Shown piece by piece: positions 7,663-38,767 of a stretch of DNA of 38,767 nt. The notes under the pieces are model-generated. The model did no database searches and was not told the origin of the DNA. It saw only the letters and a program-made list of their open reading frames with translations. This stretch comes from a virus: IMG/VR virus record IMGVR_UViG_3300042376_000610, positions 1 through 38,767 of that record; one strand, given 5' to 3'. A program made the position numbers and the translations under genes. The number at the start of each line of letters is the position of its first letter. The stretch's first letter is position 1.

Positions 7663-8004
7663 ATGCATTCCGCCGCAAGCTTCCTTGACGCATTTGTACA
7701 GGATGAAGTCAAGTGTCGTTGTTTAGATGAAGAAGATTTTGGTGCACCTCTCGATAACAAGCAAAATGATGTACCCTTGTATGATTCCTACAACAGAGGT
7801 TTAGTCGCATGCGAGCAGGGTCTAGAGCGAAATCCATTGAATCTCGAGGGGGCACGTCCTGGAATGACGGGCTATATCCCTTCGATGGAGGAGGGCTTGG
7901 CAATGGGAGCCTCTCCGAAACCAAAGACTCTGGTACTGGAGCTGGAGGAGCCGGACGAGGAGGAACAAATGCTGTCGGCAAAACGTCGTGGTTTGATCCG
8001 ATAA
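7663..8004 (+). CDS. Acidic phage protein, unknown
   Basis: 113 residues from the ATG at 7663 (a GTG directly before it at 7660 is an alternative). N-terminal HSAASFLDAFVQDEVKCRCLDEEDFG, with the C-terminal part strongly acidic (LELEEPDEEEQMLSAKRRG). It diverges from the minus gene at 7298-7624 and is followed 32 nt later by the DUF3310 gene. A second plus frame (from 7809) overlaps its 3' half; I regard that overlap as non-coding because its translation is Gly/Ser-rich filler. Function unknown. Confidence 0.55.
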   Translation: MHSAASFLDAFVQDEVKCRCLDEEDFGAPLDNKQNDVPLYDSYNRGLVACEQGLERNPLNLEGARPGMTGYIPSMEEGLAMGASPKPKTLVLELEEPDEEEQMLSAKRRGLIR

Positions 8005-8036
8005 AAACTGATTCCGTTTCAGAGAACCAACCCGTG

Positions 8037-8327
8037 ATGGAATGTAAGGATGGTGTCTGCCCGGTACCCTGGGCAACCAAAGAAGAAGCACCTGTCGTTC
8101 TTCCAGATGTAGTAAACCATCCTCCGCATTACACGGAAGGTGGTGGTGTGGAATGTATCGAAGCCATCGAATCCTCTCTTACAACTGAAGAGTATCGTGG
8201 CTACTTAAAGGGTAATATCCAAAAGTACTGCTGGCGAGAGCGTCACAAAGGCGGCACAGAATCACTGAAAAAAGCACAGTGGTATCTAGAGCGCCTTATC
8301 CAGCTTGATGAAGCTCAGAAGGGCTGA
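8037..8327 (+). CDS. DUF3310-family small protein
   Basis: 96 residues from the ATG at 8037. The frame is open back to 7809, but this start gives the length usual for the family. The DUF3310 signature is clear: VNHPPHYTEGG (26-36), ECIEAIES (39-46), YLKGNIQKYCWRERHKGG (56-73) and KKAQWYLERLI (78-88). DUF3310 proteins are widespread in phages, often near nucleotide-metabolism genes, and have been proposed to act as nucleotide kinase-like or accessory proteins, but their activity is not established. Placement downstream of dcd fits. The 3' end overlaps nblA tail-to-tail by 13 nt. Confidence 0.8.
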   Translation: MECKDGVCPVPWATKEEAPVVLPDVVNHPPHYTEGGGVECIEAIESSLTTEEYRGYLKGNIQKYCWRERHKGGTESLKKAQWYLERLIQLDEAQKG

Positions 8328-8620
8328 AGCTCATCTTCATCATCGTCGTACTCGTCGTCATCCATGCAGGCGGCGGCGAGTTCGGCTAATTCCAGATCTG
8401 TCGGAGCATCCCAATCCAATTCAATATTTTCACTTGCCATTAAATCTTTAATAGCACACCACTCCATCATGCGTTGATGGTAAAGGCTAAGCAGGGCGTA
8501 ACGCAGTTCCTCCCAAGTCATCTCTTGCGATTGAAGCTCTGCTTTACGCATGGAAAACTGGAGTTCCAGGGGGAGTTCAAATTCCCGTGGCTCAACTGAA
8601 CGCTCCATCCCACTCTGCAT
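8315..8620 (-). CDS. nblA: NblA-like phycobilisome degradation adaptor
   Basis: 101 residues. Residues 13-61 match the NblA pattern without gaps: FELPLELQFSMRKAELQ, then a short acidic turn, MTWEELRYALLSLY and HQRMMEWCAIKDLM, i.e. the two amphipathic helices of the NblA hairpin with the conserved L-x-x-E-x-QF start and QxMM segment. NblA binds phycobiliproteins and delivers them to Clp protease. Phage copies are a known auxiliary gene in some cyanophages and would free amino acids or alter light harvesting during infection. NblA is normally about 60 residues; here an Ala/Leu linker and an acidic tail (86-97, mostly D/E) are added. An internal ATG at codon 5 is an alternative start. It lies just downstream of the endolysin gene on the minus strand, suggesting late expression. 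Confidence 0.85.
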   Translation of the reverse strand: MQSGMERSVEPREFELPLELQFSMRKAELQSQEMTWEELRYALLSLYHQRMMEWCAIKDLMASENIELDWDAPTDLELAELAAACMDDDEYDDDEDELQPF

Positions 8621-8644
8621 TTGCTTGTTGCAATTATTCTAATC

Positions 8645-9304
8645 CTAGCTAGTGAATAGCAAATCAAGTTCCTGGTCTGGGAAATCGCCCAACTTGTTTT
8701 CATTCACACGAAACGCATTGGCAAACTCTGACAGGATGTAAGGACTGATGCGTTCTTCCAGTTGACGAACTGCACGTACCTCATGGGGAGCGGCGCTGTA
8801 GTTGCGGAAGGCTGTCAGAAGCACTTCAGTGGAAGACCAAGGATTGGCATCGACCTCTTGGAGGAACAGGTTGATCTCTTCCCTGCGGCGGTCCAGAAGG
8901 CCACCAATGACGTTGTGCTCCTCATCACAGATCCAATGGCCCATCTCCTGTGTAGCACCACAGAAGTCCTCTGCCTCGATGCGGTCGATGACGTGGCTGT
9001 ACAGGAAAGGATCCCAGCCGACCGAATGGATGAATGAGATTAAGGCCTGGCGCATGCTGTTGTCCAAACCAAGGTTGAGCTTAGCTAGCTGATTGTCAAT
9101 GACATTGATCTCGTGGAAGAGGTATTCCAGGGCCTTCTCACGAGTACAGCATTGTCCACGCTTGACGGGAGAACCATCGGGATAGAACTGAGTACCAAAC
9201 CCGATGGTGTAGGGATCTTGACCAGTTGTCGGATCGGGGTAGGCTTTTTCGCTATACCCTTCGTATTTGCGGATTAGGTTAACCGCATGCGAAAGATCCG
9301 ACAT
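8645..9304 (-). CDS. Endolysin, GH24 lysozyme
   Basis: 219 residues. The N-terminal T4-type lysozyme (GH24) domain shows the catalytic triad pattern E15 (KYEGY), D24 (YPDPTTG) and T33 (YTIGFGT), then the QALISFIHSVGW-like helix (about 86-97) and GLLDRRREEINLF (134-146), all typical. It cleaves the MurNAc-GlcNAc bond. A C-terminal extension (about 150-219) is unlike T4 lysozyme and may bind wall or have another structural role. No signal peptide is seen, so release would need a holin; two candidate membrane proteins lie at 4440-4775 and 25918-26214. The start codon abuts a perfect hairpin that pairs the AGGAG sequence (see 9304-9327). Confidence 0.88.
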   Translation of the reverse strand: MSDLSHAVNLIRKYEGYSEKAYPDPTTGQDPYTIGFGTQFYPDGSPVKRGQCCTREKALEYLFHEINVIDNQLAKLNLGLDNSMRQALISFIHSVGWDPFLYSHVIDRIEAEDFCGATQEMGHWICDEEHNVIGGLLDRRREEINLFLQEVDANPWSSTEVLLTAFRNYSAAPHEVRAVRQLEERISPYILSEFANAFRVNENKLGDFPDQELDLLFTS

Positions 9305-9489: not shown

Positions 9490-9915
9490 TTAGCGGGGAA
9501 CTGAGCTTCTGGCTCTTCGGTTGGCAGCTTGTTCTTTAGCTGTAGCCCATCGAACATTACCTGGCTCGTAGTGGCCAAGATTATTAATACGATCCAAAGA
9601 AGTACCTTCCGGTCTTATGCCAATTTCGTCAACCAACTCCTGTAAAGAAGTAAAGCGAAATTCAACATTTACATAGTAACCTCGATGTCCAGTCTTGCAG
9701 CGATATTTTGCCTTGTAATAACTTGATCTTGTTCTAAGCATCGCTGGATCATTCTTGACCCCTGTTCCCTTGTTTGTAGGTACTTGACCTTGCTTGGTGC
9801 ACGAACGACATCTCCAAGTGCCGTTTCTTCTACTGTATTGATCAATGCGAATACTTCCTTCGCAAGAGCAAGACTCACAAAGAACATTAACAAAACGACT
9901 GTTGGCGTTGGCCAT
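9490..9915 (-). CDS. HNH homing endonuclease with N-terminal zinc ribbon
   Basis: 141 residues from the ATG at 9915; the frame extends six codons to a TTG. N-terminal cysteines (C13, C16, C18, C36, C39) suggest a zinc ribbon. The C-terminal half has the phage HNH block SLDRINNLGHYEPGNVRWAT (106-125) followed by KEQAANRR, the D-R-I-N-N and N-V-R-W-A-T signature of free-standing phage HNH nucleases. It probably nicks or cuts DNA at a specific site to promote its own spread. The neighbours on both sides are complete, so it is intergenic and not intron-borne. Confidence 0.85.
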   Translation of the reverse strand: MANANSRFVNVLCESCSCEGSIRIDQYSRRNGTWRCRSCTKQGQVPTNKGTGVKNDPAMLRTRSSYYKAKYRCKTGHRGYYVNVEFRFTSLQELVDEIGIRPEGTSLDRINNLGHYEPGNVRWATAKEQAANRRARSSVPR

Positions 9916-9955
9916 TGGGTTCAAGCGACCCAACTATCATACCACTTGACGCTAT

Positions 9956-10261: not shown

Positions 10262-12499
10262 TTAACCGAAGAAAGAGCCAAAGCTGCCAAGAAAATCTTG
10301 AGCAGACGGAGATTTACTAGCTGTTGTCTTGCTACTTCCTATTTTAAAGTATGAGGGCGCACCTTCATCCTCTTCGTCTGCAAAGATGCTGAAATAACTT
10401 TTCTTTGTAGGCAACTCAGGTTCTTTTGCACTGCTGTCTTCAAACATGCTACCGATGGATGACATGGCGGCAAATGGGTCGGACATGTCAGGCATGGAGA
10501 AACCAAATAAACCTTGCATCCCTCCCTTAGTAGCTAACCTGCCGTCTACTTTTCCAAGGTTTTTGTCTTCGTCTGTTGCGTCTGGAAAGAAGTCACGATA
10601 AAACTCAGACTCATTTCCGTTATACCCGGCTTTCTTAAAGATGTTAAAAAGAGCTGTGCCACCGGCTGGTGATTTAGCTTTTTCATCAGTATCCCGCTGA
10701 ATGTAACTAACACCCAATTGTTCTTGCGTAGGCTTAATTTGTTGTTCATTGAGGATGCGAATCTTTTCGCGTATTTCAGAAGCAGGTTCTGTCCTTAAAA
10801 ATTCAGCAAGATAAGCCTTGACTTGATCGGCCGGCGTCTCATTAGGATCCATACCAACACCTTTTAACTGTGTTAGATATTCTTCCGGAAGGTCCTTCAG
10901 GTTTAATTTGTCAACCAGTTCTTGTGTCTTTGTCTCAGCGGAAACAAAGTCTAAGAATACCGGATTACCATACGATGCTTTTTGGTTTTGTAGTGCTGTT
11001 GCTAGGTCCTTTTGAATGAAAGAAGCAAGATCATCTCGTGTATAGGTGTCAGCAACTGGATCATAGCCTTGAGGCTTGCCAATCAATTCGTAATGTAACC
11101 TTGCAAAGTCATCTTTATTGTTGACGTCTAATCCGTATTCATATGCCCACTGTGCCCATGTTTTTCCGTCTTTTACAGCATTAGTAGAGGCTCTATTTTC
11201 CCATGCTCCGTTAACGCTTGCTTTCTGTTGAGCATATAGATTTGCCTTGCTTGTGGCATCTGTACCACTCAGCAATTCAGGATTCAGATAAAACTTAGGA
11301 TCAAATGCTTTACTTGTGGTTTTTGTTGCAAGGTCACTTAAATAGTTATTGGCTTGTTTGTTGGCAAAATCTTTTAATGCACTTGATGCAAGCTGAGTTT
11401 GCAAAACGTTTTGCTCATCTTCTTTCACATCCATATAGCTAACAAATTCCGTGATTGATTTTGATGTATCAAAACGTGGCTTCAAATAATCGTTAATAAA
11501 TTTGTTTGCAAATTCTTGTTCAATCTTGTATGTGGTTGCAGCATCCGTGGGATCTTTAATCTCCTTCATGTTGCGATAACGTTCGGCAAGCGTTTCGTCA
11601 AACCACTTCTGCCAGTTGTATTTAACAGAGGAACCAATCCCTAAACTCTTGTCAAGAGATTTAGAAAGGCTTTGACCAAAACTTGCAAAACCACCGCCGC
11701 CAAGATCGCCAAGAATTGAGTTCTTGATGTCCTGCTTAAAGCCATTGACATCAGGCATACCCATGCCTTGGAACATGGAACTCATCTGCTCTTGTTTAAG
11801 AGTTTTTGAGTATTGGTCCAGGGTTTGCTTGAGGACATCAGCGGAGAGCGCACCAAAGGTTTGTTCCCCTTGGCGGTCAATGTAATCTTGCGTAGAAAGC
11901 TCAACCAAGGAAGTGGGCTGAGCAGACGATGTGCCTAATAAAGTCTCTCGTAAAACTTGACGTTCTCTATCAGTTGGAGGACGCAGTTTTTCTGTGTACT
12001 CGGTAAGCTGTCTTTGTTTACCAGGAAGACCAGCCGGAGAACCAACAAAGCTATAGTCTGCGTGAAGGTAACTATCTAAGTCGGGATATTGTTTGGTGAT
12101 ATCAACGTCTGCAATCTTTTGCCCTGCAAAGGTAACTGCCTTACTTGCTTCTTTCCAGGTCTTAGCTTTATCTGGAACTAAACCAGCGTAAAACTTTGCA
12201 TCAAAGTCAGTAAGATTCTTGCCTTGTTTAGTTGAGTCCCAGGGTTTTATGCCTGCTGCTTTTTCGTAAAATGATTCAATAGTGCCAATGGCATCCGCAT
12301 CGACGATGTCCTTGGACGCAATACCTTTGCTTTGGAGATCTCTATCAATCCCCTCCATCAATGTTTTATAACTTCCTGCAGATCCTTGAAAAGCGTTTAA
12401 GCGCGTAGCAATAAGCTCTGCTGCTTCTTGTTCCTGAGTAGAAGCATCTTCCGCAAGAGCAGGTGTTAAACGCCCGTTGGATACAATAAAACGAATCAT
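10262..12499 (-). CDS. Large probable virion protein, function unknown
   Basis: 745 residues, soluble, mostly helical and rich in Lys, Asp, Gln and Ala. Two related segments are visible: DFDAKFYAGLVPDKAKTWKE (about 98-117) and AFDPKFYLNPELLSGTDATS near the middle. A Gly/Ser-rich linker (GDLGGGGFASFGQSLSKSL) follows a Met-rich stretch. The C-terminal third has acidic low-complexity sequence (ADEEDEGAPSYF). Size, position in the late operon and the lack of enzymatic motifs suggest a tail or internal virion protein. The start overlaps the upstream HNH stop (ATGA), so the two are co-transcribed. Confidence 0.75.
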   Translation of the reverse strand: MIRFIVSNGRLTPALAEDASTQEQEAAELIATRLNAFQGSAGSYKTLMEGIDRDLQSKGIASKDIVDADAIGTIESFYEKAAGIKPWDSTKQGKNLTDFDAKFYAGLVPDKAKTWKEASKAVTFAGQKIADVDITKQYPDLDSYLHADYSFVGSPAGLPGKQRQLTEYTEKLRPPTDRERQVLRETLLGTSSAQPTSLVELSTQDYIDRQGEQTFGALSADVLKQTLDQYSKTLKQEQMSSMFQGMGMPDVNGFKQDIKNSILGDLGGGGFASFGQSLSKSLDKSLGIGSSVKYNWQKWFDETLAERYRNMKEIKDPTDAATTYKIEQEFANKFINDYLKPRFDTSKSITEFVSYMDVKEDEQNVLQTQLASSALKDFANKQANNYLSDLATKTTSKAFDPKFYLNPELLSGTDATSKANLYAQQKASVNGAWENRASTNAVKDGKTWAQWAYEYGLDVNNKDDFARLHYELIGKPQGYDPVADTYTRDDLASFIQKDLATALQNQKASYGNPVFLDFVSAETKTQELVDKLNLKDLPEEYLTQLKGVGMDPNETPADQVKAYLAEFLRTEPASEIREKIRILNEQQIKPTQEQLGVSYIQRDTDEKAKSPAGGTALFNIFKKAGYNGNESEFYRDFFPDATDEDKNLGKVDGRLATKGGMQGLFGFSMPDMSDPFAAMSSIGSMFEDSSAKEPELPTKKSYFSIFADEEDEGAPSYFKIGSSKTTASKSPSAQDFLGSFGSFFG

Positions 12500-12852
12500 G
12501 ATGCTGCTTTATATTCTTGCATGTCAATTAAGTTTACATTCCCTGGTTGCGTCCAGGCTTTTATTGCATCTAACTTGGCTTGATCAAAAAAATCTTGTTG
12601 CTTGTACCAGGTTTCCATATGGGATGAAGCTTTGTTTGCGTTGCAACGGCAACAAGCTGGGATCAAGTTATGTCGATTAGAACACCCTGATTTAAACCGT
12701 GGGATTACGTGGTCAAGACTTGTGGCGTCCTTGCCGCAATAACCACATTTGTAGTCCCAGGCTTGATATATACTTTCTCTGAAACGTTTCTTGGCAAGTT
12801 TTGGAGTTATTTCAACTAGCAGGGCGAGAGGCTCGTGCTGGCTGCAAAACAT
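12496..12852 (-). CDS. HNH endonuclease (McrA-like)
   Basis: 118 residues. Compact HNH fold with zinc cysteines C36-x-x-C39 (YKCGYCGKDATS), the DH pair D47-H48 (LDHVIPRFKSG), N62 (NRHNLIPACCRCN) with C67 or C68 and C70, and a final N73-K74. These are the beta-beta-alpha-metal residues. It could be a free-standing homing enzyme or, since small HNH proteins sometimes aid phage packaging, a terminase accessory; its distance from the terminase genes favours homing. It is the first minus-strand gene left of the plus-strand HTH cassette and overlaps the next gene by ATGA. Confidence 0.85.
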   Translation of the reverse strand: MFCSQHEPLALLVEITPKLAKKRFRESIYQAWDYKCGYCGKDATSLDHVIPRFKSGCSNRHNLIPACCRCNANKASSHMETWYKQQDFFDQAKLDAIKAWTQPGNVNLIDMQEYKAAS

Positions 12853-13225: not shown

Positions 13226-13257
13226 AAACGGTCCTGTCAGTGATGGGGCCGTTTTTT
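13226..13257 (+). terminator. Rho-independent terminator, probably bidirectional
   Basis: A stem of 28-34 with 46-52 (ACGGTCC / GGGCCGT, counting from 13200), with an 11-nt loop, is followed by TTTTTT (13252-13257). The opposite strand also ends in a T-rich run (TTTCTTTT). It lies between the converging HTH gene and the minus gene ending at 13256, whose stop codon overlaps the T tract, so it can serve both. Confidence 0.8.
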
Positions 13258-14785
13258 ATGGCTTGTAGGGCCTGCCGTCTTTATCAAACATGGTAAAGCC
13301 TTGCATCAAGATAAACTCTGGTGGAACGTTGAATAGCTTCTGCATCATTGGCATCATCATCACGGATTGACAGTTGTAAGGAGGTACATCCATCTGCGCC
13401 AGGGAAAAGTTATTCAACAGGGAGGATTTAATGGATTGCTGTTCACTTTCTGTTTGATCGACAAGGCGTTGTTCCCATGCCGTCATACTTTCTCTCCCAA
13501 CAGGAAAATCAGAAGGCTCTGGTGGAAATGTGTTGTCTGCAAACTTAAGTGCGTAGATATGCTTGCAGTAACGCATCTCATCAAGCAACGGTTCCCAGTT
13601 GTCTGTTAATGAGATAAGCTCTCCTTGCTCAGCAGTATAGTCATTGTATCCAGGTAAGCCTTCTGCCCTGGCGCCTGTAATGCCTGGGTTCGCGGTACTC
13701 CTGATGTAAGTGGCACCAAAGTCAGCGTAGATCCCTGGGTTGTCTCGTGTCGCTTTATTGTCAACGACACTGTCGGCAACATTGTAAGGAAGTTGGAATC
13801 CAGAAGGTGCATAGACCTCCATCTGACGATTGATATTGCCAGGTGTCATGGCACTGTTGTCAATCTCGCCGCCTCTCCTCACTAACTCAAAACGTCCTGG
13901 CTTAACAGAAGATGCGCCACTTCTTGGGAAACGCGTCTTAATGCTCTTCGTGATATCCCGCATGAATGCGTAATCACGGTGCGTAAAATCCTGGCAAGAA
14001 CAACAAAATCGTGCGCCTGTAATGATGTATCGACCAGGGGTAAAACTAATGGGAGATGGCGTTAAGTACTCTTGGTCAGGTGTGACCTGCACAGATCCAG
14101 CCTTACGCAAGGTAAGGATGCCCGTTGTCGGGTTTGTAGCTGTCAGTACAGCTTGTACATAACCATACCGTTTTTGTGTTGTAGGGTCAATCGTGTCCTT
14201 GTCAATAATTTGACCACCTGGAGTGATGACGCGATCTTCGATAATTTCACTGTTCAGTGGAGTGAGCCCCCCTGGTACCCCTGGAACAGCAACATAAAAA
14301 GGCGGAGGAAGCGGGTTGGCTACACTCCAAGATCCCGCAAGCTTTACATACCAATTCTCAGTATCTTCTGTAACCGATTCAATGTAAAGACCGCTTGTTG
14401 TGATGGGATCAACGAGTCGATCACTACGCATGGAACCGGCATAACGCCAGCCAGCCCAATGCATTCCCATCTCTTTGTTCTTGGTCGGGAACCCTACAAA
14501 CGTCCCGGAAATGATTGGTGCAGGGTTTGCAACAGAACTTGGTGTGCCAGATGGAACAGGAATTTGATATTGGAAAGGATATTCGTAGCTGTTGTCGTAG
14601 AAGGTAGCCGTTGCCAACTCATACCCACGACGCCAACGAGACCAGGCTGATTCCCTGTTTGCTGCGTAAATAGAATCTGGTACTGAGCCACGCGAAAACT
14701 CAGTCGTGATCGGCTTTATCCCATTGGGAGCACTGACCACTGACTGAGTGAAATTACCAAAAGAGCTTCCACTCTTTTTGGCCAT
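13256..14785 (-). CDS. Virion protein with a split SWIM-like zinc site
   Basis: 509 residues. N-terminal MAKKSGSSFGNFTQSVVSAP, then beta-rich, Pro/Gly-rich sequence. Residues 261-266 read CCSCQD and residues 407-412 read CKHIYA: exactly the two halves of a SWIM zinc finger (CxC...CxH), but with 142 residues between C264 and C407 instead of the usual short loop. The inserted part contains R-rich and Gly-rich segments. The Met-rich C-terminal end (SVMMMPMMQKLFNV, PPEFILMQGFTMFDKDGRPY) is hydrophobic. Position among structural genes suggests a tail or neck component; SWIM domains bind DNA or protein, so genome contact in the virion is conceivable. No SD before the ATG. Confidence 0.75.
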   Translation of the reverse strand: MAKKSGSSFGNFTQSVVSAPNGIKPITTEFSRGSVPDSIYAANRESAWSRWRRGYELATATFYDNSYEYPFQYQIPVPSGTPSSVANPAPIISGTFVGFPTKNKEMGMHWAGWRYAGSMRSDRLVDPITTSGLYIESVTEDTENWYVKLAGSWSVANPLPPPFYVAVPGVPGGLTPLNSEIIEDRVITPGGQIIDKDTIDPTTQKRYGYVQAVLTATNPTTGILTLRKAGSVQVTPDQEYLTPSPISFTPGRYIITGARFCCSCQDFTHRDYAFMRDITKSIKTRFPRSGASSVKPGRFELVRRGGEIDNSAMTPGNINRQMEVYAPSGFQLPYNVADSVVDNKATRDNPGIYADFGATYIRSTANPGITGARAEGLPGYNDYTAEQGELISLTDNWEPLLDEMRYCKHIYALKFADNTFPPEPSDFPVGRESMTAWEQRLVDQTESEQQSIKSSLLNNFSLAQMDVPPYNCQSVMMMPMMQKLFNVPPEFILMQGFTMFDKDGRPYKP

Positions 14786-17842: not shown

Positions 17843-18508
17843 TTAACCAAACAGTCCACCTGTGGAAGACGACAACAACTGCTGGAACAATGCGCCAGTC
17901 ATATCATTTTGTTGTGGCTGTACCAGCTCTTTAACAAACCCTCGCATCATTTGTGTTTTTGGATCTTCTTTTGGTTCACCTCTCAGCAAAGAACCAAGAA
18001 GATAACCAGATAGCATCCCTTGGAAATCAGAAGGATTTGATACACTGGTGTTAGCAGTGGACGCACCCTGAGAAAGATCTGCTGCCTCTCCCAGTGATTG
18101 CATATGTCCCAAGCGAATTTGATATTTGTTGTCCCCCGTGGTAAACGTAGAAAGGTTTCCGTAAGCTCCTTGGTTGGCTAGAGGAACGTATTTACCGGCA
18201 CCTTCATAAAAGATTGGAGTACCCTCTGGTAAAGCCCAGTCCTCACCTTTGTGCTGCCTTCCTCCACGGGGGCCGTATTTAGACGTAATGGTAATGCCGG
18301 CCTCAGGATTAAATGTAAATTTTCCTTCTGGCGTTTGGATTAATGCTGGAATTCTCTTCTCACCAATTCGTAATCCACTTAAAGGGGTGCGAATTGTTTC
18401 AGGATTTAAGAAGGCGCCTGTTGCAAGATCTTGTACTTCAACATGCAAGTGCGGCCCAGTTGATCTACCAGTGGAACCAACACGCCCTTTAAACGTAATG
18501 CCAGCCAT
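17843..18508 (-). CDS. Circularly permuted M23-type metallopeptidase
   Basis: 221 residues. M23 (LytM-like) peptidases normally run HxxxD, then a YxHL/GHM segment, then GxTGxSTGPHLHxE. Here the last piece comes first: GSTGRSTGPHLHVEVQDLAT (11-30, zinc ligands H20 and H22, with the usual NP end), and the first piece follows: ITSKYGPRGGRQHKGEDWA (74-92, H86 and D90), then IRLGHMQSL (131-139, H135). All ligands are present, so a working zinc site can be built by circular permutation. The remaining 80 residues are a Gly/Leu-rich tail. It would cleave peptidoglycan crosslinks, probably as a virion component. It follows a strong terminator, so its transcript is separate or depends on read-through. 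Confidence 0.8.
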   Translation of the reverse strand: MAGITFKGRVGSTGRSTGPHLHVEVQDLATGAFLNPETIRTPLSGLRIGEKRIPALIQTPEGKFTFNPEAGITITSKYGPRGGRQHKGEDWALPEGTPIFYEGAGKYVPLANQGAYGNLSTFTTGDNKYQIRLGHMQSLGEAADLSQGASTANTSVSNPSDFQGMLSGYLLGSLLRGEPKEDPKTQMMRGFVKELVQPQQNDMTGALFQQLLSSSTGGLFG

Positions 18509-35585: not shown

Positions 35586-38500
35586 TTAACCCCTTTGGAA
35601 AAATACATTACGTTGTTTGGGCCTCGTAACTTGACTCAGTGGAACCAATTTACCTTGTCTACGAACGAGACGTTCTTGAGGTTGATTAGCTGCAAGTTGA
35701 GCAGCTTCTTGTTGTAAGGTACGTTCATAAAAATCAAGTGTTGGGTTAGGGCTGTACCCACGCTCGTTTAAGGGAGAACCTTCCAGGACACCTGGAATTA
35801 CAGGCTGCCTAGAACCACCGGTAGACGGTACTTGAGGAGCAGCGGAAACACTAGTTGGGCCAGAAGGAAGATTGCGACGTTGTGCTGCCTGATCCATGAG
35901 CTGTCTACCAAACTGCTGTAATTGTCCACCGGTTAGTCCGTAGCGTTGAATGGTTTGGGACTCGGTTAGATTTCCAAGGCCTGCATTAATAATACCAAGA
36001 TTTCCGCTGAGATTTAAAGCACCTGCTTTAACACGTCCACCGGGAGTAAGATTTGCAGCTAATGCAAACCTATTACGTTCTTGTTGTTGACGTGGTGATG
36101 TCGGCTCAAGATCAACTGTTAATTGAGGATCTGTGTATTGATAATTACCAGAAATAACACGTGATGCGGGTCCCATGGCAGGTGCGGCAGGTCCTGTATA
36201 AGGATTTTGTGTCCGCGCAAAAGAACCAATATTCATAGTCGAGACTTGCTGGCGGCCAATAACATTTCCTGTTCTCGGGTCTCTGACAGGAACAGTGCGC
36301 ATGCCTTCACCCGTTTGGGGCGTTGACATTTGATTACGCAAGGCAGTCATTAAATTACCAGTGGGGGTGCCTGCTACCAAGGGTGAGGCCAATACTCCAA
36401 TAGGATTGGAAACCGCGCCAATCATTGAAGATGCCGGGATGTCAAGAGTTTTACCTAACTGCATGACTTTAGATTGAGAAGCCGTATCAACGCGTGGTGT
36501 GTAATAAGAAACACTACCTTTTTCGTATTCATCCGCAATGGTCATTGGATCAACACCCCCGCCGCCGGTTACGTCATATTTTCCGGGAACTGCAACTTTC
36601 TTGCCAGTGGTCTGATAAATGACATAACCACCTCTATTGGTCATGATCTTGCCTTGGTCATCCCTGAGCGGAATTCGCTGTCCAGTATTAGGATCAATTA
36701 AAAATTGTTCACCAAAGACAGGTGTATTTTTCTCTGTCTTAAGTAAATTCATTGCAAAAGTACTTGCTTCCTTATTTAAGCGTTGCGCACCGGTTACTTT
36801 ATCGATATCCGGCTTTAAGAAAGGAAGATCAATCCCTTCATTTTCCATTAACTGTTTATCGAGTTGCTGCGTAATAAATCCTTGGTAATCGTAAGGCTCG
36901 CCAATCTCGGCCAATGTTTTACCCTGCGCTCTTCCAAGTTCCAGAGCTTCTGGATTACGTTCTTGAAGGTAACGTAACTTAGCCGATGGATCATTGAAAT
37001 ATGCATTTTTTGCATCCTCTGCATATTGCTGTAACGTCTGACGCGATAATGTCAAAGGGACGGGAGTTGCATCTGGTGGCGTTTCAAACCCAATGCGCCT
37101 CTCTCTTCCTGTTGTCGGATCTATTTGGATAATAGGAGTACGTTTGAAGCCAATCAGGGGTTGCTCACCAACAACTTCAAGGCCAACAGCGGAATATAAT
37201 TTGCCATCAGAGCCACGGATAACCCCGCCTTCTTGACGCCATTCTGTCAAAGGCAGTGTACTAATTGCATCTGATACATTTGATTCCGCCGTTTCAAAAC
37301 CACCCACAAGTCTTGTTCCTTGTGCACTGAGATCTTCCGAGGTCAAACGTCCACCTTGCCGGTAACCCACGTTTTGAGCGCGAAGTTGACGAGCAAAAGG
37401 CATTTCCGGGTTAGCAACAACGTCAAGGCCTGACGTTTGCTGCCCTTCCGCTGTGCGGCGTAATGGAGTGACAACATCGGAAAAACGTTCCTGACGTTCT
37501 GATCCACCGCGTAATCCCGACATTTGTTGAACAGCGCCTGGGATTTGAGTTGTTCCTTGATTGGTGCGCTCGCGGAAAGATTCTGTTTCAATCAAAAGAT
37601 TGCCAACACCTTCTGTGTCTCCATAATCAGTACCCATTTGAGGACCGCGAGACATGTATTCCGTAGGATCTAAATCAGGAATATCTTCTTCCTGTAAGTA
37701 ATTGCCTGTATTTGGATCATAGGTAAAACCAGCTTGTTCTAACTTTTCTTTTTGTTGCAACTGTTTTAAATTAGTTGTATCTGCGTATGTCAAGCCCTGG
37801 CCGCCAACTGTAGCGGTTTGCAGTTCTTCGACGTTTGCTCCAGTCATTGACGCACGTGCACCACCTGCGATCTCCATCGTTGGGTTGATGCTTACTGCAC
37901 CACCACGAACTTGCGGAGTACGCCCCAAGAACTGAGAAAGTGTTAATTGCTCAGGTGTTGCGTACTTACGCACTAACGCAGGATTTTTAATTGCACCAGC
38001 CTCATAAAGGCGATCCGCATTCTCCGACACGTACTTGTTTAAATAAGTATCACGTGCTTCAACTGGACCAAGGGGGATTACATCAGAAAGTTTGACGGAA
38101 GGGTCCAGGAGCATGTCACGTATTTCACGTGGATATGAAGCCGCAGCCATCGTACGCTCCAAGATTTCGTTAGGCGTGAAGCGGTTAACACCAATACCTT
38201 CGCGTGTGGGGGTATCAGAAAATTGACTTAACTGAACACCACGTCCCTGGCGGACATTGATGCCAGATTTACGTAATTGTCTACCAAGGGCCGGAGAAAC
38301 CTCAAGCTCTCCTGTTAAATCTGCAACGGTACGACCGCCACGTTCATAACGCGAGCCAAGAAATTCTTGGGCCTGACGACCACCTTCTTCAAGTAACTCT
38401 TCAAGTTCCCAAGGATTGCCTGATACAACACCCTGGCGTACTTGTGCGACATTAGCAACTTCAGTTGGAAATTGGTTTGTTAACTCTTGAAGACGCGCTT

Positions 38501-38767
38501 CACGGATAATACGGTCAACATCCTGACTGAATAGCTTAAAACCGTTGACTTGACGTTGTTCGGGAATAACTGACAAATTAGTAATAGCTTGATCAAGACC
38601 GCCGTCTACAGCTTCTGTCGCTTGAACAACAACATTAGGGTTTTGCGTTTGTTGAATTGTTGTTAAATCAACAGTTGACCGAGGAATTGCAGTTGGAGCA
38701 CCCCATGGATCAGCCACTTTTGAAGGAGCAGGTGCTGTTGACCGCAAAGGAGTCTCTTTGACCTTGG
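35586..38767 (-). CDS. Very large virion protein, N-terminus beyond the right edge
   Basis: The frame is open to the window edge (at least 1,059 codons). A TTG at 38747 could be a start, but the frame continues upstream (KVKETPLRSTAPAP) with no stop, so the gene is truncated here. The product is soluble, Gln/Arg/Asn/Thr-rich with many polar segments and no membrane helices: TPLSLSRQTL-like mid region, FITQQLDKQLMENEGIDLPF, GGYVIYQTTGKKVAVPGKYD, and a C-terminus ending RQGKLVPLSQVTRPKQRNVF. Probably a tail or internal virion protein; no enzymatic domain is seen. Its stop lies 2 nt before the small basic gene's start in transcript order. Confidence 0.8.
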   Translation of the reverse strand, partial: KVKETPLRSTAPAPSKVADPWGAPTAIPRSTVDLTTIQQTQNPNVVVQATEAVDGGLDQAITNLSVIPEQRQVNGFKLFSQDVDRIIREARLQELTNQFPTEVANVAQVRQGVVSGNPWELEELLEEGGRQAQEFLGSRYERGGRTVADLTGELEVSPALGRQLRKSGINVRQGRGVQLSQFSDTPTREGIGVNRFTPNEILERTMAAASYPREIRDMLLDPSVKLSDVIPLGPVEARDTYLNKYVSENADRLYEAGAIKNPALVRKYATPEQLTLSQFLGRTPQVRGGAVSINPTMEIAGGARASMTGANVEELQTATVGGQGLTYADTTNLKQLQQKEKLEQAGFTYDPNTGNYLQEEDIPDLDPTEYMSRGPQMGTDYGDTEGVGNLLIETESFRERTNQGTTQIPGAVQQMSGLRGGSERQERFSDVVTPLRRTAEGQQTSGLDVVANPEMPFARQLRAQNVGYRQGGRLTSEDLSAQGTRLVGGFETAESNVSDAISTLPLTEWRQEGGVIRGSDGKLYSAVGLEVVGEQPLIGFKRTPIIQIDPTTGRERRIGFETPPDATPVPLTLSRQTLQQYAEDAKNAYFNDPSAKLRYLQERNPEALELGRAQGKTLAEIGEPYDYQGFITQQLDKQLMENEGIDLPFLKPDIDKVTGAQRLNKEASTFAMNLLKTEKNTPVFGEQFLIDPNTGQRIPLRDDQGKIMTNRGGYVIYQTTGKKVAVPGKYDVTGGGGVDPMTIADEYEKGSVSYYTPRVDTASQSKVMQLGKTLDIPASSMIGAVSNPIGVLASPLVAGTPTGNLMTALRNQMSTPQTGEGMRTVPVRDPRTGNVIGRQQVSTMNIGSFARTQNPYTGPAAPAMGPASRVISGNYQYTDPQLTVDLEPTSPRQQQERNRFALAANLTPGGRVKAGALNLSGNLGIINAGLGNLTESQTIQRYGLTGGQLQQFGRQLMDQAAQRRNLPSGPTSVSAAPQVPSTGGSRQPVIPGVLEGSPLNERGYSPNPTLDFYERTLQQEAAQLAANQPQERLVRRQGKLVPLSQVTRPKQRNVFFQRG

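Follow-up and report, generated by a model that had tools for sequence, protein, structure and literature searches.

Cyanobacterial NblA delivers phycobiliproteins to ClpC (PMC7966870); its N-terminal motif was reported to bind ClpC and its C-terminal motif phycobiliproteins (PMC4103541). Phage-encoded NblA is already known in both freshwater and marine cyanophages, and the phage proteins cause phycobilin loss; moreover, small proteins of a marine cyanopodovirus and myovirus (S-CBP4, S-SCSM1) have been proposed as distant NblA homologues (PMC9602691). The nblA of Ma-LMM01 is expressed early (PMC4103541). A survey from 2017 gives the S-EIV1 group without a listed nblA (PMC5332604, table 2), and in the open literature, which did not extend to Nadel 2019 or the S-EIV1 paper, we found no nblA assigned to this group. 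Here we focused on a small gene in a viral stretch of 38,767 nucleotides (the whole of which is referred to as "the window"), which a sequence-only reading had taken for an nblA auxiliary gene.

Homology of the small ORF to NblA

The ORF was confirmed on the minus strand, with an ATG start and 101 codons for 101 amino acids (Table 1). Because the start that is invariant in all relatives corresponds to Met5 (window 8608), the true protein may be 97 amino acids long and read from this codon. The earlier reading had seen an NblA pattern at residues 13–61 and named an HMM search with the NblA family as a check on it. That search bore the pattern out: the Pfam profile (PF04485) aligned without gaps to residues 15–62 through profile positions 1–48 of 50, and the score of 25.4 bits (E 1.9e-5) barely passed the gathering cut-off of 25. 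In the six-frame translation of the whole record, this ORF was the sole Pfam NblA match (E 4.2e-7). Anabaena NblA (1ojh) was the best phmmer match of the window protein in the whole PDB (E 0.0099), and no match was obtained with it in PHROGs or NCBIfam.

A single-sequence score just above the Pfam cut-off could also arise from a chance likeness between a short helical protein and the NblA profile, and we weighed this against the whole family. IMG/VR was scanned three times and hundreds of relatives were obtained; 193 family ORFs in the fetched loci yielded 94 distinct sequences, with identity down to about 49%. Most relatives scored 17–24 bits against Pfam NblA, which is under the cut-off, yet with E values of at most 6e-4, and NblA was the most shared family in the Pfam scans of diverse members (19/19, best E 1e-5). 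We then aligned the phage family profile by hhalign with a host profile of 51 cyanobacterial NblAs out of sampled genomes. As a result, the two matched at 96.6% (E 5.5e-10) with a score of 50.8, compared with a maximum of 21.6 among 400 column-shuffled controls, and a second, independent pair of alignments gave 97.1% (E 7.8e-11). In the reciprocal direction, the phage profile found matches in 29 of 244 cyanobacterial genomes, nearly all at NblA loci that Pfam identified independently, and in the PDB it placed the NblA structures 1ojh at rank 1 (E 0.0027) and 3cs5 at rank 3 (E 0.25). The reciprocal matches at NblA loci and an hhalign E value of about 1e-10, with shuffled controls far lower, contradict a chance match, to which we assign a practically negligible probability. 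Judged by its sequence, the window ORF is homologous to NblA, the adaptor for phycobilisome degradation. In a tree of 51 columns the phage family formed one separate clade (support 0.998), from which the donor cannot be named.

AlphaFold2 predicted helices at residues 18–32 and 36–63, with pLDDT of about 88–91 across residues 21–60, followed by a third helix at 75–89 and a disordered acidic tail with pLDDT of about 40. A Foldseek search of the predicted structure against PDB and BFVD gave no usable match, which for a two-helix protein this small, and with no positive control, says little.

Two further resemblances were seen in these searches. Over residues 10–44 (window 8489–8593), the family profile has a weak similarity to the N-terminal domain of ClpA, seen with three PDB sequences at E about 1; Pfam scans of family members gave no support for it. 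The likeness could have come about by chance, or it could hint at NblA mimicking a repeat of the Clp N-domain. In addition, NblA matches in two small cyanobacterial genomes (G157:C1:706453-706590 and G193:C1:665048-665182) fall in frames interrupted by several stops, possibly representing decaying nblA or chance.

Table 1. Positions of the NblA-like gene, its parts and its neighbours in the window
Feature	Position	Strand	Basis
NblA-like gene, 101 aa (97 aa from Met5)	8315..8620	-	ORF, Pfam NblA, homologues, invariant Met5
NblA homology domain, residues 15–62, predicted helix-loop-helix	8435..8578	-	Pfam, six-frame search, AlphaFold2
N-terminal box LPLELQF, residues 16–22, counterpart of NblA LSLEQQF	8555..8575	-	alignment; motif role from PMC4103541
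Altered C-terminal end of helix 2, residues 53–62 (E53, W54, A62)	8435..8464	-	alignment
Predicted extra helix, residues 75–89, in the lineage-specific conserved extension	8354..8398	-	AlphaFold2, dN/dS, invariant residues
Acidic low-confidence C-terminal tail ending in LQPF, residues 88–101	8318..8359	-	alignment; pLDDT about 40
Endolysin (phage lysozyme), directly upstream on the same strand	8645..9304	-	PF00959, E 7.5e-18
Convergent DUF3310 gene, overlapping the 3' end of the nblA-like gene by 13 nt	7809..8327	+	PF11753, E 1.8e-17
Conserved TTAGAATAATT in the endolysin-nblA spacer, possible -10 element	8632..8642	-	upstream comparison

Genome setting, synteny and selection

The closest described phage to the window is Synechococcus phage S-EIV1. 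The NblA-like gene closes a late structural/lysis region on its downstream side, as judged from the other minus-strand genes, which include those for terminase, a portal-like virion protein, the major head protein and an M23-type peptidase. The cyanophage structural region proposed from the sequence was thus recovered. The endolysin directly precedes the NblA-like gene in all 102 relatives whose upstream sequence was long enough to tell, with a spacer of 12–67 nt in the relatives listed and 24 nt in the window, and the isolate S-EIV1 has the same pairing of lysozyme and NblA-like gene. The place beside the endolysin, which had been called unusual, is therefore the fixed arrangement of this lineage.

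To see how regularly the gene occurs, 17 large records were picked by a structural gene, independently of the NblA-like gene. It was present in 14 of them; the other three also have no endolysin locus, so they probably do not cover this part of the genome. A sporadic auxiliary gene was rejected on these grounds, and the NblA-like gene seems to belong to the core late-region genes in the S-EIV1-like lineage. Median dN/dS was 0.03–0.04 for the domain and for the whole protein, and 0.06 for the C-terminal extension, i.e. purifying selection, which is strong on the gene as a whole. A spurious ORF is ruled out by these values and the fixed synteny.

We further compared the spacer between the two genes. 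Among 64 distinct upstream sequences, TTAGAATA was found in 38 and TARAATR in 57. TTAGAATAATT occurs once in the window and by count alone is not above chance, and a scan with promoter and terminator consensus sequences remained at chance level. The TTAGAATAATT-like element is perhaps a -10 box. Since it is conserved in most relatives, the NblA-like gene possibly has its own promoter. We infer that the gene is probably expressed late.

The fact that divergent relatives all keep the gene next to the endolysin, with a short spacer, might also mean that the protein is a lysis accessory, which tunes endolysin level or lysis timing, e.g. by bringing endolysin to ClpCP, and that phycobilisomes are uninvolved. 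However, NblA homology indicates antenna proteins, shared late expression could explain the adjacency, and the conserved AT-rich spacer element suggests a promoter of the gene's own. We hold such a role to be very improbable.

Several other features of the window were recorded. Short stretches within 208–1985 share 90–95% DNA identity with tail-fibre regions of the podoviruses S-CBP4, S-CBP3 and S-RIP1, whereas the rest of the window resembles S-EIV1, which suggests that host-recognition genes are exchanged between unrelated cyanophages. Two HNH endonuclease-like genes lie within the late structural region on the minus strand (9490–9933 and 12496–12852), as does a second endolysin-like/M23 metallopeptidase protein (17843–18508, minus strand), whose matching S-EIV1 region is likewise annotated as peptidase M23. 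Three proteins encoded on the minus strand are without any PHROGs family, namely those of 745 aa (10262–12499), 509 aa (13256–14785) and 1053 aa (35586–38747). Moreover, IMGVR_UViG_3300042509_001483 (60550 bases) encodes a 100% identical NblA-like protein at the same coordinates, and the window would seem to be the same phage, or one nearly identical to it, in a shorter assembly.

Conserved box, altered helix 2 and proposed function

Of the 94 distinct members, 93 carry the N-terminal box L-P-L-[EQ]-[LM]-Q-F-x-M-[RK]-K-A-E without exception, and the remaining one is a fragment without this region. Compared with LSLEQQF, the first Gln is replaced by L or M in the phage family (LPL[EQ][LM]QF). 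The hydrophobic two-helix pattern of NblA is retained in the alignment. The C-terminal end of helix 2 differs from that of hosts. At position 53, 45 of 51 hosts have R/K and all 94 phage sequences have E; at position 54, 44 of 51 hosts have E/D and 91 of 94 phage sequences have W; at position 62, 46 of 51 hosts have K/R and the phages have A, E or D. All 11 phage representatives and nearly all 94 phage members show the three changes R/K53 to E, E/D54 to W and K62 to A, and so lack the conserved charged C-terminal motif of canonical NblA. Position 62 of the phage family aligns with Lys53 of Anabaena NblA; this residue and Leu51 were reportedly implicated in phycocyanin binding by Bienert in 2006. 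Behind the domain, E64, D71, P73, T74 and E77 are invariant in the phage-family extension. The flanking extensions described earlier around the NblA domain thus exist and are conserved in relatives.

We favour, with moderate confidence, the interpretation that this is a divergent, phycobilisome-directed proteolysis adaptor of the NblA family and a core lysis-linked gene of the S-EIV1-like lineage. The putative recruitment of host ClpC by the N-terminal box is supported through the conservation of the box. The protein most likely still acts on phycobilisomes, and the dismantling of host antennae by it is plausible. A dimer would then bring phycobiliproteins to degradation, or loosen the rods of the phycobilisome for it, probably at a late stage of infection and near lysis; this would free amino acids for capsid synthesis and let the cell absorb less surplus light before it lyses. 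Given the rewritten C-terminal binding end, together with the added third helix and acidic tail, the contact with the antenna probably differs from that of host NblA and could involve picocyanobacterial pigment proteins or linkers.

The changes that the whole family shows at residues 53, 54 and 62, within the end reported to bind phycobiliproteins, count against action on antennae. They are one ground for the main and serious rival, i.e. a retargeted Clp adaptor, in which the NblA scaffold would still recruit ClpC through its conserved box but carry other cargo, such as a protein of host regulation, defence or the photosystem, via the altered helix 2, the third helix and the tail. The box stays invariant while E53, W54 and A62 replace near-universal host charges, the extension is under purifying selection, and NblA binds ClpC N-terminally and phycobiliproteins C-terminally (PMC4103541). 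On the other hand, the antennae of the host cyanobacterium may differ enough to account for the change, no alternative cargo is known, and ClpC binding is itself putative. We consider retargeting rather unlikely, and give a similarly low probability to its extension to the whole lineage, in which NblA would have become a lysis-module adaptor that retains its ClpC-recruiting end, has a rewritten cargo-binding end and turns the host's Clp protease on a new target as infection ends.

The protein could also act independently of Clp, by inserting itself into phycobilisome rods and disassembling them. A mimicry model of this kind has been described for NblA (PMC4103541), and the retained two-helix pattern would suit it, but the most conserved segment is the reported ClpC-binding box, and we regard purely structural action as quite improbable.

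S-EIV1-like phages are widespread, with hundreds of IMG/VR loci that carry the NblA-like gene and with a cultured representative, and despite this spread and the isolate the gene is labelled hypothetical. If it is directed at phycobilisomes, dismantling of the antenna would count among the core late functions of an entire picocyanophage lineage, and would not be confined to an accessory gene that occurs sporadically in phages of freshwater blooms. Otherwise, the family would offer a natural experiment that separates ClpC recruitment from cargo choice in NblA.

Comparison with known NblA proteins

S-CBP4 and S-SCSM1 are the marine phages in which Nadel 2019 is said to have reported NblA-like proteins. 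The S-CBP4 candidate retains an LTMEQQF box. A tblastn search with the window protein did not recover the NblA-like proteins of these two phages, and Pfam NblA gave no match in the S-SCSM1 and S-TIM5 genomes even at E 10. GenBank lists QFG06501.1 of S-SCSM1 (L179:3352-3516) under the name phycobilisome degradation protein nblA; its sequence is without the LEQQF box and the annotation looks doubtful.

With cyanobacterial NblA (PF04485; 1ojh, 3cs5, 2q8v, 2qdo), the window protein shares a gapless homology of 48–51 residues, the L-x-L-E-x-Q-F box, the LY-x-Q core of helix 2 and the helix-loop-helix, which is predicted here. However, cyanobacterial NblA is a single domain of about 60 aa, whereas the present protein has 101 aa with an extra predicted helix and an acidic tail, and the R/K, E/D and K of the former stand against E53, W54 and A62. 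The experimentally studied NblAs of the freshwater phages Ma-LMM01/MaMV and PaV-LD are likewise phage-encoded NblA-domain proteins, but those of Ma-LMM01 and PaV-LD retain host-like charges, and the Ma-LMM01/MaMV and PaV-LD genes lie in nucleotide-metabolism regions (nrdA/nrdB, thymidine kinase) instead of the late/lysis region. The direct homologue is AHV82245.1 of S-EIV1, a Synechococcus phage from an Arctic lake, with 64% identity over 81 aa; it lies immediately behind the lysozyme gene and is annotated as "hypothetical protein". What we claim as new is a lineage-core, lysis-linked NblA variant.
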